Positions 2,529-35,132 of a stretch of 35,132 bases of DNA are shown piece after piece. The DNA comes from a virus, in IMG/VR virus record IMGVR_UViG_3300020202_000059, positions 1 to 35,132 of that record. One strand, given 5' to 3'. The position numbers were made by a program, and so were the translations under genes. Position 1 is the stretch's first letter. Every line of letters starts with the position of its first letter. Under the pieces are notes generated by a model that saw only the letters and a program-made list of their open reading frames with translations, was not told the DNA's origin and searched no databases.

Positions 2529-2858
2529 ATGCACGCAGTTCAAATTAATCAGTTAGATCGTGACCTCTATGAGATAGCTGGAAAGTTCAATGATCCCAAG
2601 ATCAACGAGCTTTTGATGCAAGCAGTCTTACTACCTGAGGAAGCCGCCTATATATTTCGTTGCTCGTCAGCAATGATATACGAATGGGCGAAAGTGGATC
2701 CCACTTTCAAAATCTGCATGCCCGGGAGATTGGTTAGAATTGCACGTTCCACGGTAATTGATATATTGCTGGGCCGACGTTCTTTGAAAACTAAACGAGT
2801 AGACGAGAAAAGCCCTACCAAGTCCTACCGAAAGGAGAAATTGGTGTGGCAAAAATAG
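2529..2858 (+). CDS. Excisionase-like MerR/HTH_17 DNA-binding protein
   Basis: 109 residues; ATG 2529 follows GAGGG. About residues 38-75 read as a winged helix of the excisionase type: 'LPEEAAYIFRCSSAMIYEWA' is the HTH and 'RLVRIARSTVIDIL' the wing and last helix. Such proteins bend DNA at the attachment site and direct the integrase to excise. It overlaps the integrase start by 13 bases, so the two are co-translated. The long basic C-terminus is not part of the usual domain. It could instead be a repressor of the int operon. Confidence 0.65.
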   Translation: MHAVQINQLDRDLYEIAGKFNDPKINELLMQAVLLPEEAAYIFRCSSAMIYEWAKVDPTFKICMPGRLVRIARSTVIDILLGRRSLKTKRVDEKSPTKSYRKEKLVWQK

Positions 2859-4084
2859 TTAAGCGCAAGGGGCGCTGGGTCTGTGATCATTATCGCAACG
2901 GTAAACGAGCCAGGCCTACTTTTGAAACGAGAGCAGAAGCCGAAGACTTTAAGAGAGAATTACTACTTTCCAAGTCGGTCGGTGGTGGCAAATTAGAAGG
3001 AACTTCGATTGCTGCGTCTAACGTGATTAAGTCTATGACTTTGGTAAACGCAGTTAATAACTATTATGAGCTTGAGACGCTCTCAAAGGCTGAAAAGAGT
3101 CGACCTCAGGAACAGAAGTGGTTTGAGATCTTAATTGAGTTTGCCGAGCGCAATAACCTTAAATTTGTCCATGACATAAAGCTTTTACATTTGCAGAAGC
3201 TTCAGAAGGAATTGCAAGCAAAAAATCGCGTCGAAGAAAGGCAGCGATTCATCGATAAAAGAAGAGCTAAGTCTAAGAACCCCGCTGTTAGAAAGTTGGT
3301 TGGCACTCCGATCAAAATGGAAAGCGGAAGCCTAACTAACTCGGCGATCAATCGTTTTTTCAACACCTATCGAGATTTTTTTACTAAGTGCGTACAATGG
3401 GAGGCAATAGCTAAGTCTCCGACTGAGCACTTAGAAAATCTAGAAGAGGCGCCGCGAATACGAAAGATCTGGGAGGACGAAAAGATCAACCAAGCAATTG
3501 AAAAGGCGTATGAGGGCTTCCATTGGTCAAACAATGGAAAACCTAGCTTCACTGACACTGCTTGGGCGGGTGACGTCTATTATTTTCTTGCATGGACCGG
3601 ATGTAGGCCGATTGAGGCGTGTAACCTTCGGATTCCTGAAATCGATTTTGAACGGAACTTTTTCTGGGCAACGACTCGAAAAGGGACAGGTAAGTTAAAG
3701 CGGCGCATGGTGCCTATGATTCCTGAGGTCGCAAACTTCCTAAGTAAGAAGATTGCGGAGAACAAACGCCGAGTAATAGGCATTCATGCGGACCGAGTTT
3801 TCCTGACCAGGGTGAATACCCCGGTCACCACTAACGCCCTTGATCGTGTGTTGGCTAGAATTATTAAAGCATTAGGTTTGCAAGGATATGAGCTTTACGG
3901 ATTTAGGCATTCTTTTGTGACGGCAACCGGTGATGTTGAGGGTGGGAATCTTGAACACACTAGACAACTGGCTGGTCACTCTAATCTGTCGACAACTCAA
4001 GGATACATGCACCCAAGAGTTGAGCGAATTCGTGAAGCGGCATTAAGAACAGCGAAAGTGAGGGGCTTAAAAAGTCGGGAATGA
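2846..4084 (+). CDS. int: Tyrosine-recombinase integrase
   Basis: 412 residues from GTG 2846, chosen for AAAGGAG nine bases upstream. The N-terminal 'RKGRWVCDHYRNGKRARPTF' is an arm-binding-type beta domain (residues 8-27), followed by a core-binding helical domain (about 60-185). The catalytic domain has Arg254 in 'TGCRPIE', a basic hairpin around 279-288, Y351-G-F-R354 in place of the usual H-x-x-R, His378 in 'LAGHSN' and nucleophile Tyr387 in 'TTQGYMHP'. The Tyr for His change at 351 is seen in some active integrases. It would integrate the phage at the attP lying 79 bp downstream. Confidence 0.95.
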   Translation: MAKIVKRKGRWVCDHYRNGKRARPTFETRAEAEDFKRELLLSKSVGGGKLEGTSIAASNVIKSMTLVNAVNNYYELETLSKAEKSRPQEQKWFEILIEFAERNNLKFVHDIKLLHLQKLQKELQAKNRVEERQRFIDKRRAKSKNPAVRKLVGTPIKMESGSLTNSAINRFFNTYRDFFTKCVQWEAIAKSPTEHLENLEEAPRIRKIWEDEKINQAIEKAYEGFHWSNNGKPSFTDTAWAGDVYYFLAWTGCRPIEACNLRIPEIDFERNFFWATTRKGTGKLKRRMVPMIPEVANFLSKKIAENKRRVIGIHADRVFLTRVNTPVTTNALDRVLARIIKALGLQGYELYGFRHSFVTATGDVEGGNLEHTRQLAGHSNLSTTQGYMHPRVERIREAALRTAKVRGLKSRE

Positions 4085-8578: not shown

Positions 8579-8878
8579 TTGAAAAAAGGGCACAGCAGGC
8601 TGAAAATGTGGTGCATAGGACGGGATGCAATGATACGTCATTTGTACCAGTCAAAAGACAGTCTAATTCACCTTTGCGAATCCGCCGAAATCGATGAGGG
8701 TCTCCGGTTGGTCTGGACTAAATGCGATATCGACGTGCCGGAAAACTCAAGTTTCATGTCTACAGAAGAGCCAACGTGTCCAAGATGCACTGCTAAGGAA
8801 AAAGCTGAGTTAGATCAGGTAGAAAAGGCGATGAAACACGTATTTGAAAATAGTGAGATCAAAGAGAAAGTTCCCTAG
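8579..8878 (+). CDS. Small Cys-pair hypothetical protein
   Basis: Up to 99 residues. The frame opens with TTG 8579; ATG 8606 (after GCAGG) or ATG 8630 are alternative starts. 'LIHLCESAEIDEGLRLVWTK' and 'PTCPRCTAKEKAELDQVEKA' suggest a small zinc-binding protein with one Cys pair near the C-terminus. It ends the rightward early operon and overlaps the 3' end of the ligase gene on the other strand by 20 bp. Confidence 0.5.
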   Translation: MKKGHSRLKMWCIGRDAMIRHLYQSKDSLIHLCESAEIDEGLRLVWTKCDIDVPENSSFMSTEEPTCPRCTAKEKAELDQVEKAMKHVFENSEIKEKVP

Positions 8879-9782
8879 TCACCTGTAAGGCACTCTTATC
8901 AATTCGAATCCCCACAAAGGAAGCGTGACGTAAAGATCCACCACTTGTTCGTTCGAGGAACTCTACTTCAACTACTATCTTCGGCTTTAACCAAGTGACG
9001 ATAAATTCTTCAGGGACATTTTCAGCGACTGCCTTCTTAGAGATTCCTGCTTTCAAAATATCCTTTACCGCAAGATATGGTACCTGTTTCACTCGCCCAG
9101 CATAAACTAGTGTCTCTCCCACATATTCACCAAGCAGTAAGGGGCCTATGCCTGAGCTTCGACCCTCAGGGGCGGCAAAGCCGATAGCCACGAATTCTTG
9201 TCTATGAACACACTTAGTCTTTACCCAATCACGACTTGAGTTTTTGCCTGAAACATACGTGCTGTTTTTTCGTTTGCTGACTATACCCTCAAGGCGATAT
9301 TCGCACGCCATTTTAAAGATTGCCTCAGACTTGGCGTTTAATACCTCACTCAGGTGAATCTCGTTTGGGAATTTATGACTTAGTTTCACGAGGCGATCAC
9401 GGCGTTTGATCAGTGGCAGTTCTCTTAAGTCCTTAGGCCCATCTTTAAGAAGGTCGAACACGAAGTATTGAATCCTGTTTTGCAAATGCTTCTTGCCGAT
9501 CGCTCTTCTCAAGGCTTCAAAGTCGGACCGACCCTCGTCGTTGATAAAAACTATTTCGCCATCAAGGATGAGTGGTCCCTTGAGCTCTGCCAGCGCCTCA
9601 ACTATTGTGGGAAACTTGTTCGAAAAGTCCACGCCATTCCGACTTATGAGTCTAACATCGTGCCTCTCGACGTACGCTAACATCCGGTAACCATCAAATT
9701 TGACCTCGTGAATGTAGTCACTAGACGAAGGTACTTTAGAAACTAGGAGTGGCTGCTGTGGAACAATGTAGTGTTGCGCCAT
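8859..9782 (-). CDS. ATP-dependent DNA ligase, LigD-type ligase domain
   Basis: 307 residues. Nucleotidyltransferase motif I 'HEVKFDGYR' gives the adenylated Lys28 and Arg33; motif III region 'LDGEIV' gives Glu76; motif IV 'EGIVSK' (165-170) and motif V 'DWVKTK' (185-190) follow. An OB-fold domain with 'RHASFVGIRIDKSA' ends the protein, as in LigD ligase domains. It lacks the polymerase and phosphoesterase domains of full LigD, and no Ku gene is seen. It would seal nicks or join ends, possibly with host Ku. It is convergent with the early operon and divergent from the SRAP operon, so it is regulated separately. Confidence 0.93.
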   Translation of the reverse strand: MAQHYIVPQQPLLVSKVPSSSDYIHEVKFDGYRMLAYVERHDVRLISRNGVDFSNKFPTIVEALAELKGPLILDGEIVFINDEGRSDFEALRRAIGKKHLQNRIQYFVFDLLKDGPKDLRELPLIKRRDRLVKLSHKFPNEIHLSEVLNAKSEAIFKMACEYRLEGIVSKRKNSTYVSGKNSSRDWVKTKCVHRQEFVAIGFAAPEGRSSGIGPLLLGEYVGETLVYAGRVKQVPYLAVKDILKAGISKKAVAENVPEEFIVTWLKPKIVVEVEFLERTSGGSLRHASFVGIRIDKSALQVTRELSL

Positions 9783-10239: not shown

Positions 10240-11040
10240 ATGTGTGCACAGTACAGAATTGAAGCAAATAGAGAATATCTAGAAAGAGTTTACGGAATTA
10301 AGTTACCCAAAGACTTTGAACCGTATGACAGAAGAATCCTTCCTTACTCCGAAGCGCCAGTGATATTACAAAAGAAGGGCATCGTGCTTCTCGAAGAGAT
10401 GGTATTCTCGCTTATCCCGCCTTGGTCAGATAAACCAAAGGCATTCTTTGCAACTCACAATGCAAGGCTTGATGGACTTAAGGACGTTAAGAAGAAAGTT
10501 AAAGGTAAAGAAGTAGTAGAGGAGAAATACCAAACTATCTATGAAAGTGGGCTTTGGAAGGGACCGTTTACCAAGCAAAGATGTGTAGTTCCGATCTCAG
10601 GGTTTCGTGAGCCCCTTTACTGGGGCGACCTCGCAGGCCATTGGGGCCTATTTAGATCAAAGGATCATGAACTACTTTCGGCTGCCGCAATCTACTCTGA
10701 ATGGACAGATAAGAAAACGGGAGAGGTGGTCCCAAGCTTTGCCATCATTACGGATGATCCTTATGACGATGTCGAAAAAAATGGCCATCACAGATCCCCG
10801 CTTTTCCTAAAGCCAGACGCAGTAGAAGAATGGATCTCTGAGGAAAAAATAGAGGGTCCTGATGCGTTTAAATTCTTAAGAAAGAATCGTCTAAAGACAA
10901 AATTTGAAATTGAGCCACAAGAGGAAATGGCTGCTTCTTGGAAAAAGAGAGTTAAGGAAAAAGAGGAAGAAAGAGAATTTGAAGCTAAGTTCCGTAAGGA
11001 GCGGCCTAAGTATGTGGCCGCGGCAAAAGAGACCGCCTAA
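10240..11040 (+). CDS. SRAP-domain protein (HMCES/YedK family)
   Basis: 266 residues beginning Met-Cys, so Cys2 becomes the catalytic N-terminal residue after methionine removal. The other active-site positions are present: Asn74 in 'THNARLDGL', Glu124 in 'SGFREP' and His184 in 'GHHRSP'. Family members crosslink covalently to abasic sites in single-stranded DNA and protect them from error-prone processing. The lysine/glutamate-rich tail (about 215-266) is an extension. SRAP genes are known to associate with SOS and LigD-type repair genes, which fits the ligase next door. It would guard replicating phage DNA, and is unlikely to be a peptidase despite the old name. Confidence 0.93.
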   Translation: MCAQYRIEANREYLERVYGIKLPKDFEPYDRRILPYSEAPVILQKKGIVLLEEMVFSLIPPWSDKPKAFFATHNARLDGLKDVKKKVKGKEVVEEKYQTIYESGLWKGPFTKQRCVVPISGFREPLYWGDLAGHWGLFRSKDHELLSAAAIYSEWTDKKTGEVVPSFAIITDDPYDDVEKNGHHRSPLFLKPDAVEEWISEEKIEGPDAFKFLRKNRLKTKFEIEPQEEMAASWKKRVKEKEEEREFEAKFRKERPKYVAAAKETA

Positions 11041-11709: not shown

Positions 11710-12018
11710 CTACCGCGAAATTTTAGGACCTGAGACCGTCCTGGAGCCAGCAGGGATAATCTCTTGAGGTTCACTCGTTACCGCCTGCGCCTCTCCTTTT
11801 TCCTCAAAGCTTAGCCTCGGCGTGCACCATACAATCAATTGTGCTCTTGATTTCAACCCTAGTTTTTGAAATACGTTTGTCAGATGAAACTTAACTGTCT
11901 TTTCTGTGATAAACGTTTCATGGGCGACTTCTCGGTTAGAAAGTCCCCGATTGACGTATTCAACGATCTCAGCCTCTCTACGAGTAAGGCCACTCTTTCT
12001 GAGCTCATCCCTGAGCAT
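11710..12018 (-). CDS. Stand-alone LuxR-type HTH regulator
   Basis: 102 residues from ATG 12018, chosen because AAGGAGG precedes it by five bases; GTG 12024 lies inside that ribosome site. The GerE/LuxR domain fills about residues 10-68: 'LTRREAEIVEYVNRGLSNRE' and 'EKTVKFHLTNVFQKLGLKSR' with the recognition helix. No receiver or ligand domain. The tail is short and disordered. Probably a transcription factor of the accessory region or of host genes during lysogeny. Confidence 0.85.
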   Translation of the reverse strand: MLRDELRKSGLTRREAEIVEYVNRGLSNREVAHETFITEKTVKFHLTNVFQKLGLKSRAQLIVWCTPRLSFEEKGEAQAVTSEPQEIIPAGSRTVSGPKISR

Positions 12019-12152
12019 AGCCACCTCCTTGTGCTGCCCTTGATAAAAGTTTGATGAGGGCCGAATTTAAAATCAAGTTTTCGCGGGCTTATAGTCTAGG
12101 GACGGATACGTGATTGCTATGGAACTAATGTAATGTCTGAGAAGCTCAGAGA

Positions 12153-22576: not shown

Positions 22577-22911
22577 CGGTGACTGCTAAAGCTCTGATCC
22601 AGGCAAAATATGCTGCGAATACAAACACGACCGAATACACCTCACCCGCTTCGACAAGAACCATCATAGATAAGCTAACGGCAACAAACACAGACGCAAG
22701 TGCCAGAACGTTAGACATTTATATAGTTCCAAGTGGCGGCGCTGCTGGTGGATCTAACCAGGTCATTCAGACACATTCCATTGCTGCCGGCGCAATTAAA
22801 GACTTCACAGAACTCCAGAATCACATTCTAGCAACGGGTGATTTTATCGTGATTGCAGCGAGTGTTGCGAGCAAGGTTGTGATCAGAGCGTCTGGGAGAG
22901 AGATCACATGA
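22573..22911 (+). CDS. Small virion-associated beta protein, unknown
   Basis: 112 residues, overlapping both neighbours. Beta-rich and Thr/Ala-rich ('DIYIVPSGGAAGGSNQVIQT'), a style found in small tail proteins. The pattern 'TNTDASARTLDIYIVPSGG' resembles virion proteins of many tailed phages. No precise role is assigned. Confidence 0.6.
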   Translation: MTVTAKALIQAKYAANTNTTEYTSPASTRTIIDKLTATNTDASARTLDIYIVPSGGAAGGSNQVIQTHSIAAGAIKDFTELQNHILATGDFIVIAASVASKVVIRASGREIT

Positions 22912-23255
22912 TCGCAAATACCTTATACGCTAAGTACATCCAGGAGCGAGAGGGACTTGAGATCATTGAAAATGAGAATGGTTTCATAATTTATAAGCTC
23001 TATCCGGACGAGTGCTTAATTGTAGATATGTTCGTCGACAATCATGTCCGTGGCGAAGGGTTCGGGAGGCAACTTTTAGATGAACTCAAAACCAAGGCTG
23101 TTGGATGTAAGACAATTACAGCTAACGTATGGATCTCAAAGCCAAACTCAAATCATACATTACAAGCTGCGCTCGCCTGCGGATTTAAGGTCATGCGGGC
23201 AGATAACGGCTGTCTAATAATCGCTCGAAAATTGTCAGGAGATGAACATGGGTGA
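22908..23255 (+). CDS. GNAT-family acetyltransferase
   Basis: 115 residues, ATGA-coupled. Acetyl-CoA motif A is 'VRGEGFGRQLLDEL' (about residues 47-60), following the beta-4 strand 'CLIVDMFVD'; motif B lies around 'NHTLQAALACGFKVM'. Small GNAT genes occur inside tail operons of several podophages. The target is unknown; it may modify a virion or host protein during assembly. Confidence 0.78.
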   Translation: MIANTLYAKYIQEREGLEIIENENGFIIYKLYPDECLIVDMFVDNHVRGEGFGRQLLDELKTKAVGCKTITANVWISKPNSNHTLQAALACGFKVMRADNGCLIIARKLSGDEHG

Positions 23256-32159: not shown

Positions 32160-32450
32160 TTACTCGGCAGCCTTTAGGAATTGAATGATGTTGTCGTATC
32201 CCAAACCTTTAGAAATAGTGACCAGTGTCAGGAATTTCATGTTGGAACGACCTGCCACGATTTCCGTTAAAGCCGACCTTGAGATTTTTATTTCATAGGC
32301 AAAGTCTTCAAGAGCCTTCTCTTGGAGATGTAATCGATTCTGGATGTGTAAACCAATTTTCTTTAGAAGCTTTACCTCATCAGACGAAAAGACAAACTCG
32401 TTGTAACGAGCTCTGGAATTCCTAGACGTTTTGGGTCTAAACTGAGGCAT
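32160..32450 (-). CDS. XRE-family HTH regulator (second switch, leftward)
   Basis: 96 residues from ATG 32450; the longer GTG form to 32522 runs through the operators and is rejected. 'ALEDFAYEIKISRSALTEIV' and 'SNMKFLTLVTISKGLGYDNI' are the HTH and following helices (about 45-85). The N-terminus is basic and disordered. It is divergent from the regulator at 32567, with paired palindromes between them, so the two probably cross-regulate. Confidence 0.75.
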   Translation of the reverse strand: MPQFRPKTSRNSRARYNEFVFSSDEVKLLKKIGLHIQNRLHLQEKALEDFAYEIKISRSALTEIVAGRSNMKFLTLVTISKGLGYDNIIQFLKAAE

Positions 32451-32467
32451 TAACGTAAGTTTAAGTG

Positions 32468-32527
32468 TTGACGTGGATAATTGCTGACCTGTATACCGGT
32501 ATTTTTTGCACGACCGGTACACAGGTC
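32468..32527. promoter_or_regulatory. Promoter and paired operators of the second switch
   Basis: GACCTGTATACCGGT (32486-32500) and ACCGGTACACAGGTC (32513-32527) are inverse copies (14 of 15). Each is itself nearly palindromic, ACC-x-GTATAC-x-GGT. A rightward promoter TTGACG (32468-32473) and TATACC (32492-32497) with 18-bp spacing is overlapped by the first copy. Binding there would block transcription of the 32567 gene. A leftward promoter was not resolved. Confidence 0.68.
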
Positions 32528-32566
32528 ACGGTCTAGCAACTAGACGTTCGTAGATAAGGATGACAA

Positions 32567-32848
32567 ATGCGTCGACAGCGAAGTGAATTAGCTAACTTTC
32601 TACGCACTCAACGTATTAAGAAAGGCCTAAGTCAAAAGCGAGTTGCCGCCGCATTGGGATATAGTTCCGCTCAATATGTCTCAAATATCGAAAGAGGTGT
32701 TTGCTCGGTACCTATTAAGGCGCTTCGAAAAATGTGCATTCTCTACGGTATAAAGAGAGAGCACCTTATCGCCGTGATGCTGATTGATGCACGAGCTAGA
32801 TTAGAAAATGTTCTCAATTCAAAATCGGTTCGCAAAGTGAAACGTTAG
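32567..32848 (+). CDS. XRE-family HTH regulator (VSNIERG type, rightward)
   Basis: 93 residues with AAGGATG upstream. 'FLRTQRIKKGLSQKRVAAAL' and 'SSAQYVSNIERGVCSVPIKA' form the HTH (about 11-55). It shares the signature of the early-operon regulator at 6401. The basic tail 'KSVRKVKR' could add DNA contacts. It may control the cargo genes that follow or the leftward regulator. Confidence 0.75.
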   Translation: MRRQRSELANFLRTQRIKKGLSQKRVAAALGYSSAQYVSNIERGVCSVPIKALRKMCILYGIKREHLIAVMLIDARARLENVLNSKSVRKVKR

Positions 32849-32911: not shown

Positions 32912-32930
32912 GATAAACAATGATTGTTTA
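32912..32930. promoter_or_regulatory. Perfect 19-bp palindrome upstream of the diiron-protein gene
   Basis: ATAAACAAT-G-ATTGTTTAT has perfect nine-base arms. TATATA (32928-32933) is a possible -10 box without a good -35. The palindrome overlaps the expected promoter, so a repressor or activator is likely. AGGAG (32990-32994) then serves ATG 33002. Confidence 0.6.
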
Positions 32931-33001
32931 TATAGCACGGTGTGCTTGGACTCATCTGTTACTTGAAGTCTTTCGATAAGCATTCATACAGGAGACGACA
33001 G

Positions 33002-33637
33002 ATGTTTAAATATTTCGAATTCGAATTCAGTAAGATTGACTCAACCATCATGAATTTTCCGTGGGAAGACAAGGCGGCCTACGCTATGTTTTTGGCGCAA
33101 GTTTATCACTTTGTAAAAAACTCGAGCCGAATAATGACCTGTGTTGCATGCCGTTTTGACCAGGATAGAGAACTTATTCATAGAAACTTAATTAAGCACG
33201 CAGATGAAGAAGCAGGTCACCAATTCTTAGCTAAGAAGGATCTAGAAAATCTTGGGTATCGATTAGAAGAGATCCCAGAACTTTATACAACCCGCCAATT
33301 CTATGAACCCCAGTACTATAAAGCGATGTTTCACGATCCAATTGGATTCTACGGTTACGCACTAGCCTTAGAGGGTACAGCAGTGAAGCGTGGTCAGGAG
33401 ATCTACCAACGAGTGAGAAAAGCGCACGGTGAAGGAGCATCGCTATTCTGGAAGGTACACGTTAAGGATGATCAAGACCACGTCGGCGACGCTTTAAAGA
33501 TGATCGATCAGCTTTCAGATAAAGAGAAGGATGCCATTAAAGACAATTTGTCTCAAAGTGTGTTTGGTCTCGGAAGGATGTTCGAAGAAATTGTAGCGAA
33601 AAAGGCCCTGGTTCCGAAGAGTAAGAAATCCGCTTAG
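33002..33637 (+). CDS. Heme-oxygenase-like diiron (iron-containing redox) protein
   Basis: 211 residues from ATG 33002 (AGGAG seven bases upstream; an earlier TTG frame lacks one). All-helical. Candidate iron ligands are 'YHF' His36, 'HADEEAGH' with His66, Glu70 and His73, Glu124 in 'LALEGTA', His153 in 'KVH' and the 'DDQDH' Asp157/Asp159/His160. The spacing matches the heme-oxygenase-like diiron oxidase superfamily (relatives of PqqC, TENA, UndA). Members oxidise varied small substrates. No metabolic partner gene is seen. It sits beside the repressor, so it is probably a lysogenic-conversion cargo gene. Confidence 0.72.
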   Translation: MFKYFEFEFSKIDSTIMNFPWEDKAAYAMFLAQVYHFVKNSSRIMTCVACRFDQDRELIHRNLIKHADEEAGHQFLAKKDLENLGYRLEEIPELYTTRQFYEPQYYKAMFHDPIGFYGYALALEGTAVKRGQEIYQRVRKAHGEGASLFWKVHVKDDQDHVGDALKMIDQLSDKEKDAIKDNLSQSVFGLGRMFEEIVAKKALVPKSKKSA

Positions 33638-34248
33638 TTCATAGGGCGAAGCCGCGGGGATTTGGATCTTGTTGCCTTCTGACTGACAAGAAGACCGACA
33701 ACCTTATCCTCGGAGTTGAACACGGGCCACGCCCATTTAAAAATAACGTCTATTGCTAGACCTTCTCCACCTGCCTCAATCAGTGTGTGAGGGGGAATTG
33801 ATGAGAGGTCTATTGCTTTTCCCTTATTTGCATCTGAGAACACCTTCTGCCATGCCTCGAGCATGGGAGCTAATATATCAGCAGAGCGTTTATAGAGTTC
33901 GTCAAACGGCCTTGTATGTAGTTCGTCTATTGCAACTGATGTCACTTCAAAAAATTTTCCGTTGCAGTAAACTTGGGTACGATCGCTATCGTACAGTTCA
34001 ATCACGTCGCCATAGGTTAATTTACCTTCGACATCATCTTTAACTCTTAATCCTGCAGTACTCAGAAATTGACTGATCCTACGTTTCTCAACGTCCGGTG
34101 CGTAGTTGAAGGAGGATTCTGCGGGAATAAGCTCAGTACCTATCACTGTCGCCATATGTCTAAACTCATAACATACAGGAGGTCCGGAATTAACTGCATT
34201 GTAATACTTTCCATTGCCCGTAAACAAAATACGATTATAAATAAGCAT
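33634..34248 (-). CDS. Unrecognised acidic protein, possible PAS-like fold
   Basis: 204 residues, tail-to-tail with the diiron gene (four-base overlap). The middle shows alternating strands and helices, with 'GKLTYGDVIELYDSDRTQVY' and 'YKRSADILAPMLEAWQKVFS', and the end has 'VIFKWAWPVFNSEDKVVGLL', recalling a PAS-like sensory domain. No catalytic motif. The ribosome site at ATG 34248 is poor; ATG at codon 32 is an alternative. Unknown function. Confidence 0.55.
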   Translation of the reverse strand: MLIYNRILFTGNGKYYNAVNSGPPVCYEFRHMATVIGTELIPAESSFNYAPDVEKRRISQFLSTAGLRVKDDVEGKLTYGDVIELYDSDRTQVYCNGKFFEVTSVAIDELHTRPFDELYKRSADILAPMLEAWQKVFSDANKGKAIDLSSIPPHTLIEAGGEGLAIDVIFKWAWPVFNSEDKVVGLLVSQKATRSKSPRLRPMN

Positions 34249-34270: not shown

Positions 34271-34507
34271 GTGAGCGCAAGTTTCAAAGATCCGCTCTTA
34301 GAGTCTATTCGAGAACAAGATCGATTAAGAGAACAGTTAGAAGCATTAAGGGGCTTGGCAGAAAAATTCAATAACATGGGAAGGCGCAGACAGCTCATGA
34401 TTGAGAACTTAAATGGCGCTAAGCTAACTGCAATCTCTTATGTTAGATGTGTTTACATTGGGAGCCTTGTAGAGGGTGAGGAATCAGTTAGTCAGCAACT
34501 TCGTTAG
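34271..34507 (+). CDS. Small coiled-coil hypothetical protein
   Basis: 78 residues from GTG 34271 after GGGGGA. The first half is a coiled coil ('LLESIREQDRLREQLEALRG'). It ends 20 bases inside the repressor gene on the other strand, tail to tail. Divergent from the 33634 gene with a 22-base gap. Confidence 0.5.
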   Translation: MSASFKDPLLESIREQDRLREQLEALRGLAEKFNNMGRRRQLMIENLNGAKLTAISYVRCVYIGSLVEGEESVSQQLR

Positions 34508-35132
34508 ATTTCTTTTTGAATCGACTCAATACTTCAGTGACTTCAGCGGTATCTACTGGCTTTTCCAAAAGAAACCCTCGAATCATTTGTCGAACGAATA
34601 GCTTATCGTAATCACTGGCACGCTTATATTTTTGAACAATTTCAGTGTCTGAGAATTTGTCGGAAGGGTCGACCGTAGGCTCATCAAAAACTCCGCGCAA
34701 ATAGCTAAGAACAAAAACTTTTTCGATGTTTTTGAGTCGCGGCAAGAATTCGGTAATTTCAATATCTGTGACCAATTTGATTACCTTTCCCTCCTCAATA
34801 AGTACGGCGACTTTATCAATAAAATCAATGATTTTGGTCTTAGCGGCTCCACTTTTCACTAGGCGTTTGATTGTTAAGAGTGCGTCCACTAGGGTCTGTA
34901 GATGTCTTTCCTTCTTAAGAACCTCAGGATCAGTAGAACCCTTTAGCTTTAGGAGCCTAATCTCGTTGGCTTGATCAGCTATAGTTTGCGCTAACTCCTG
35001 AATGGCAGGGGTTGCGAGAGGGGCAGAGGTTCCAAGTAGCTCGTGAGTAGTTACTCCTAAGATTTCTGCTAACCGCACGATGCTAGAGTATTCAGGAAAG
35101 CTTTTTCCGGACTCCCAACGGAAAATCGTCAC
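34488..35132 (-). CDS. CI-like repressor, C-terminal part (gene continues at 241-1)
   Basis: The frame enters from the contig end and finishes at 34488. On the circle it is the last 172 codons plus stop of the 252-residue repressor begun at 241. After the HTH there is a helical dimerisation region ('ATPAIQELAQTIADQANEIR', 'VDALLTIKRLVKSGAAKTKI') and a charged end 'LSRFKKKSNEVAD'. No Ser-Lys peptidase pair is seen, so induction probably depends on another signal or an antirepressor. Confidence 0.85.
   Translation of the reverse strand: MTIFRWESGKSFPEYSSIVRLAEILGVTTHELLGTSAPLATPAIQELAQTIADQANEIRLLKLKGSTDPEVLKKERHLQTLVDALLTIKRLVKSGAAKTKIIDFIDKVAVLIEEGKVIKLVTDIEITEFLPRLKNIEKVFVLSYLRGVFDEPTVDPSDKFSDTEIVQKYKRASDYDKLFVRQMIRGFLLEKPVDTAEVTEVLSRFKKKSNEVAD
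35006..35132. repeat. Terminal direct repeat, right copy
   Basis: Identical to bases 1-127; see that entry. Treat as one copy when drawing the map; the true genome is about 35,005 bp. Confidence 0.95.

Follow-up and report, generated by a model that had tools for sequence, protein, structure and literature searches.

The window analysed here, the whole stretch of DNA under study, is IMG/VR record IMGVR_UViG_3300020202_000059 from position 1 to 35,132, and it represents an entire phage: the record is a complete circular genome of 35,132 nt with a 127-bp direct terminal repeat (1-127 and 35006-35132). Near its end lies the gene for a heme-oxygenase-like dimetal oxidase (HDO) of 211 residues, which occupies exactly 33002-33637 on the plus strand and is complete, with an AGGAG ribosome-binding site and an ATG start. 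It follows the endolysin gene and is flanked by HTH genes; in agreement with the preliminary description of this locus, it is outside the structural and replication genes. The gene immediately upstream (32567-32848, plus strand) encodes a Cro/C1-type HTH protein of 93 residues (HTH_31, E 3e-11). On the other side, convergent with the HDO gene and overlapping it by 4 bp, is a gene for a PAS-domain sensor-like protein of 204 residues (33634-34248, minus strand), and beyond it a gene for a repressor-like HTH protein (34488-35132, minus strand; weak HTH and RstR/phage repressor matches) whose ORF runs past the end of the record, over the circular junction, into its beginning. The preliminary description had placed the HDO gene next to the repressor, which holds in so far as its immediate neighbour is a Cro/C1-type HTH gene, but the gene at 34488-35132 is the larger, repressor-like one; the description also gave the HDO gene these limits, but had not linked the PAS gene to it as a partner.

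The palindrome assigned to the HDO gene in that description is indeed present and perfect. It is the 19-bp sequence ATAAACAATGATTGTTTAT (32913-32931), with 9-bp arms and a 1-bp spacer (ATAAACAAT-G-ATTGTTTAT), 70 bp upstream of the HDO gene, and is a candidate operator. The chance of finding a palindrome with 9-bp arms in the 153-bp gap upstream of the HDO gene is about P = 0.005, and in the window only one other locus has one. An inverted repeat with 16-nt arms, TGACCTGTATACCGGT / ACCGGTACACAGGTCA (32485-32528; 94%), is located between the divergent HTH genes 32160-32522 and 32567-32848 and is likewise operator-like.

Judged by its sequence, the product of the gene at 33002-33637 belongs to the HDO superfamily and would be a diiron (or dimetal) oxidase. 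A heme-oxygenase-like fold, which in this superfamily has seven helices, had been claimed at the outset, with a profile search proposed as the check, and that search finds Pfam Haem_oxygenas_2 (PF14518) at E 4e-12 (46.7 bits against a gathering cut-off of 28.9) and PDB 3dde at E 1e-6; a profile built from 32 relatives of the HDO matches 3dde at E 8e-19 and the mangotoxin oxidase MboA (9ypi) at E 1.5e-5. The metal ligands published for MboA are E86, H89, E143, H172, D176 and H181 (PMC13185094). With the profile of relatives aligned to MboA, and the 25-residue offset of that chain taken into account, the equivalent residues of the phage protein are E70, H73, E124, H153, D157 and H160, so that all six ligands of the 3-His/3-carboxylate diiron type, which the superfamily draws from core helices 1-3, are present. 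The two ligand motifs quoted earlier are found as H66-ADEEAG-H73 and H153-VKDDQD-H160, and E124 completes the set. At least 80 of the 81 relatives keep the residue in each of the six ligand columns. The phage HDO resembles other members of the superfamily (UndA, BesC, SznF, CADD, MboA; PF14518) in having the ligand set, order and spacing class of MboA, and differs from them in being phage-borne and in belonging to the gene module described below. Membership in the CADD family itself is excluded by an NCBIfam score of 20 against a cut-off of 200. A single-sequence AlphaFold model of the protein reached a pLDDT of only 37 and was set aside.

The phage is a temperate P22-coat phage, most likely of Bdellovibrionota, the host being taken from its relatives only. 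Its capsid, portal and terminase are of the P22-coat podovirus type, an ORF of 412 residues (2846-4084) that is integrase-like by eye has homologues in related phages, and G207 and G284, both genomes of Bdellovibrionota, contain related prophages. The structural genes common to the phage, its IMG/VR relatives (including L009 and L010) and the two prophages are about 25-73% identical. Because the record is a complete circular phage genome, the HDO gene is carried by the phage and is not host flank; the circular record with its 127-bp terminal repeat likewise rules out a gene at a prophage boundary. Among the related IMG/VR phages examined (L009 and L010 included) and in the G207 and G284 prophages there is no HDO, no sensor and no module GNAT gene, and the HDO gene is therefore accessory cargo, as had been claimed. 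Consistent with this status, no relative of the HDO was found in the 50,697 phage records of INPHARED. Pattern scans of IMG/VR and of genomes, with single sequences or alignments of two or three rows as queries, also returned no relatives; these are weak negatives, as the patterns mostly missed the active site. Scans of the genome for Rfam families and tRNAs gave no matches.

Relatives of the phage HDO are instead found in Bdellovibrionota. Its top plasmid match is on the Bdellovibrio plasmid pBdHM1 (Bdellovibrio sp. HM001), where the surrounding gene order is similar and the HTH protein at the locus is 49% identical over 55 residues to that encoded at 32567-32848. Much closer HDO homologues are present in 11 of 12 Bdellovibrio genomes picked by 16S signature, and a homologue occurs in 153 of 369 Bdellovibrionota genomes. 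In the tree the phage HDO groups with the L094 and L071 proteins inside the chromosomal Bdellovibrionota clade (support 100/96), at an identity of 42-44% to its nearest relatives. More distant HDOs on plasmids of Citrobacter, Vibrio and Pseudoalteromonas (L019, L021, L022 and L026) belong to a recurrent operon of genes for a thermostable hemolysin, an AMP-binding protein, the HDO and an SDR protein.

The gene context of the Bdellovibrionota HDOs was counted in 79 non-phage loci, chosen as the best HDO matches and drawn from genomes that include MAGs, with flanks that are often short. A GNAT-like gene lies within 3 kb of the HDO gene in 74 of these loci, a gene for a PAS-like sensor in about 60 (60-61, the printed count of 61 including the phage itself), and both in 59; no sensor gene was found within the available flanks, some of them short, in about 18 chromosomal loci. 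GNAT and HDO genes mostly overlap or are separated by no more than 50 bp, and at one locus they are naturally fused into a single ORF of 455 residues in a Bdellovibrionota genome (L082:1477-2844, minus strand). The commonest arrangement of the HDO and PAS genes is convergent, and in several chromosomal loci the two overlap by 4 bp. Near the module, the density of genes for Cro/C1-type HTH proteins is about 8 times that in the outer parts of the loci. The sensor family, present in 124 of 369 Bdellovibrionota genomes, aligns with the PAS_9 profile (hhalign E 8e-7, 92%). Single genomes carry several paralogues of it, at most 7, and many of these are away from any listed HDO (for example G023, C1:1416417, 1729303 and 82755). 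The assignment of the third family as GNAT-like is weak: its similarity to LuxI/OlsB-like acyltransferases reaches hhalign E 4e-4 at a probability of 36%, compared with E 0.1-0.7 for unrelated pairs, and single members match Pfam at E of about 0.07-0.12. A relationship to the T_hemolysin protein of the Vibrio-type HDO operons was rejected, as no similarity was found (hhalign E 0.36). Neither GNAT nor sensor members have a Pfam match to Autoind_synth or Autoind_bind, and hardly any canonical LuxI or LuxR ligand-binding domains occur in this phylum, with 6 and 1 of 369 genomes, respectively, over the cut-off. In open-licence papers no description of the GNAT-HDO-PAS set of Bdellovibrionota or of its partial copy in a phage was found, nor any paper linking Bdellovibrio to the HDO family; as far as found, the set, which is named here, appears to be undescribed, and the phage enzyme adds a member to the HDO superfamily.

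With an HDO and its PAS partner present and the GNAT-like partner missing, the phage is a carrier of a partial module. Its sensor belongs to the Bdellovibrionota module sensor family (HMM E 5e-44) and is very divergent, with a long branch and 28-31% identity at best. The phage resembles the chromosomal module, and that on pBdHM1, in the nesting of its HDO in the clade, in the HTH type nearby and in the convergent PAS gene, whose 4-bp overlap with the HDO gene is identical to that of several chromosomal loci; it differs in the position of the HTH gene, which is upstream on the HDO strand, in the unusual divergence of its sensor, and in having no GNAT gene. Neither the module GNAT nor a remnant of it was found among the ORFs or when all six frames of the circularised genome were searched; the single hit to the GNAT set there comes from the L082 fusion, through its HDO half. 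A gene of the phage for a small GNAT-like protein at 22908-23255 was rejected as the module GNAT: it belongs to the virion operon, is conserved at 38-40% identity in phages and prophages of this kind, and has no relationship to the module family. The phage HDO appears to be best explained by acquisition from the chromosomal three-gene module. Since the HDO and sensor ORFs are intact and their conserved residues are kept at 30-44% identity to anything known, we infer that they are under selection for function. The initial suggestion of a stand-alone enzyme of lysogenic conversion thus survives in the accessory HDO cargo and is otherwise too narrow, because that cargo is part of a GNAT-HDO-PAS module.

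The mechanism proposed here rests on analogy with LuxI/LuxR and VqmA. A host GNAT-like enzyme would most likely conjugate or build a small molecule, the HDO would oxidise it, and the PAS protein would bind it and pass its state to an HTH regulator, a logic like that of LuxI/LuxR in separate parts. Keeping the HTH, HDO and PAS genes and no GNAT gene, the phage would depend on the host synthase, whose product it would modify and read, and lysogeny or the host response would be tuned in this way. That the phage modifies and reads the product of a host synthase through its HDO and PAS protein, to such an effect, is the reading that we favour tentatively, with slightly less than even confidence. 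The 204-residue PAS protein has no match to an HTH or other DNA-binding domain, and the path from it to transcription is therefore a guess.

A known precedent is VqmA of vibriophage VP882, a quorum-sensing receptor in which the signal DPO, made by the host, is bound by a PAS domain (PMC8284805, PMC12324486). Like VP882 and the phages that encode LuxR receptors, the phage studied here is temperate and has a receptor-like gene, of the PAS type in the case of VqmA, for which the signal would come from a host synthase; the PAS ligand-binding domain of a VqmA-like receptor is found in the phage sensor family, by its similarity to PAS_9. However, VqmA includes an HTH domain, and its ligand and lysis pathway are proven, whereas the PAS protein here lacks a DNA-binding domain and is a putative receptor, and the present phage also carries a predicted tailoring enzyme. 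Compared with the acyl-homoserine lactone systems, the module similarly has an acyltransferase-like putative synthase, of weak profile similarity, beside a putative receptor of PAS fold, but it is below detection by Pfam Autoind_synth and Autoind_bind, its HTH protein is separate, it includes an additional oxidase, and its genes are convergent. Arbitrium (AimP/AimR) of SPbeta-type phages shares the idea of a small-molecule decision system in a phage; there the signal is a peptide made by the phage itself, and no homologous parts are seen here.

Other readings of the same genes have to be weighed. The module might make an intracellular metabolite, a cofactor or an antibiotic-like product, with the PAS protein as a sensor of redox state, oxygen or a metabolite in the same cell, and the phage would then carry a metabolic gene for lysogenic conversion together with the regulator of that gene. 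Sensing of redox state or of metabolites is common among PAS domains, which also respond to oxygen, and the more distant plasmid HDOs share biosynthetic operons with genes for AMP-ligase and SDR proteins. The substrates of characterised HDOs are, moreover, mainly amino or fatty acids and belong to natural-product pathways (PMC13108848). However, a self-contained conversion gene would need the near-invariant GNAT partner, which the phage lacks, unless the host supplied it, and the sensor evolves faster than the HDO (median end branch 1.15 vs 0.77), as expected of ligand specificity and not of redox sensing; this reading seems somewhat unlikely.

The missing GNAT gene is compatible with two further readings. 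The phage HDO could interfere with a host signal by consuming or altering it (quenching or diverting it), or counter competing phages that use the signal, with the PAS protein as its regulator. An oxidase with intact ligands that is kept without a synthase fits this possibility, but the phage HDO retains every module-invariant residue and a changed reaction is not indicated, which leaves interference improbable. Alternatively, the genes could be passenger cargo, a fragment of the chromosomal module that entered by imprecise excision or recombination, lost its GNAT gene and has no present function, and the cargo is indeed absent from related phages and prophages and known from one phage only. 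Against such a passenger, which we consider slightly less probable still, both ORFs are intact at 42-44% (HDO) and about 30% (sensor) identity with all metal ligands and invariant residues kept, and the palindrome ahead of the HDO gene, like its good ribosome-binding site, points to controlled expression.

If the favoured reading is extended to the phylum, chemical communication in Bdellovibrionota would run through a GNAT-like synthase, a tailoring HDO and a PAS receptor, which would together stand in for LuxI/LuxR, and the synthase-less phage would eavesdrop on it or rewrite it to time lysis or lysogeny; we regard this extension as possible but doubtful. A module whose HDO occurs in 153 of 369 genomes of a predatory phylum with almost no LuxI/LuxR is a concrete, testable candidate for predator communication or life-cycle timing. 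Possibly the phage draws on chemical signals of its host, in which case its synthase-less copy would be a natural probe of the pathway and possibly a new route by which phages read their hosts.

Three other genes of the phage deserve mention. The gene at 11710-12024 encodes a protein with a LuxR-type (GerE) DNA-binding domain on its own, no ligand-binding domain being attached; its counterpart in the related phage L009 is 59% identical. Two genes of the early region, judged by eye, resemble those for an ATP-dependent DNA ligase (8859-9782, minus strand) and an SRAP/YedK protein (10240-11040), an uncommon pair in a 35-kb phage.
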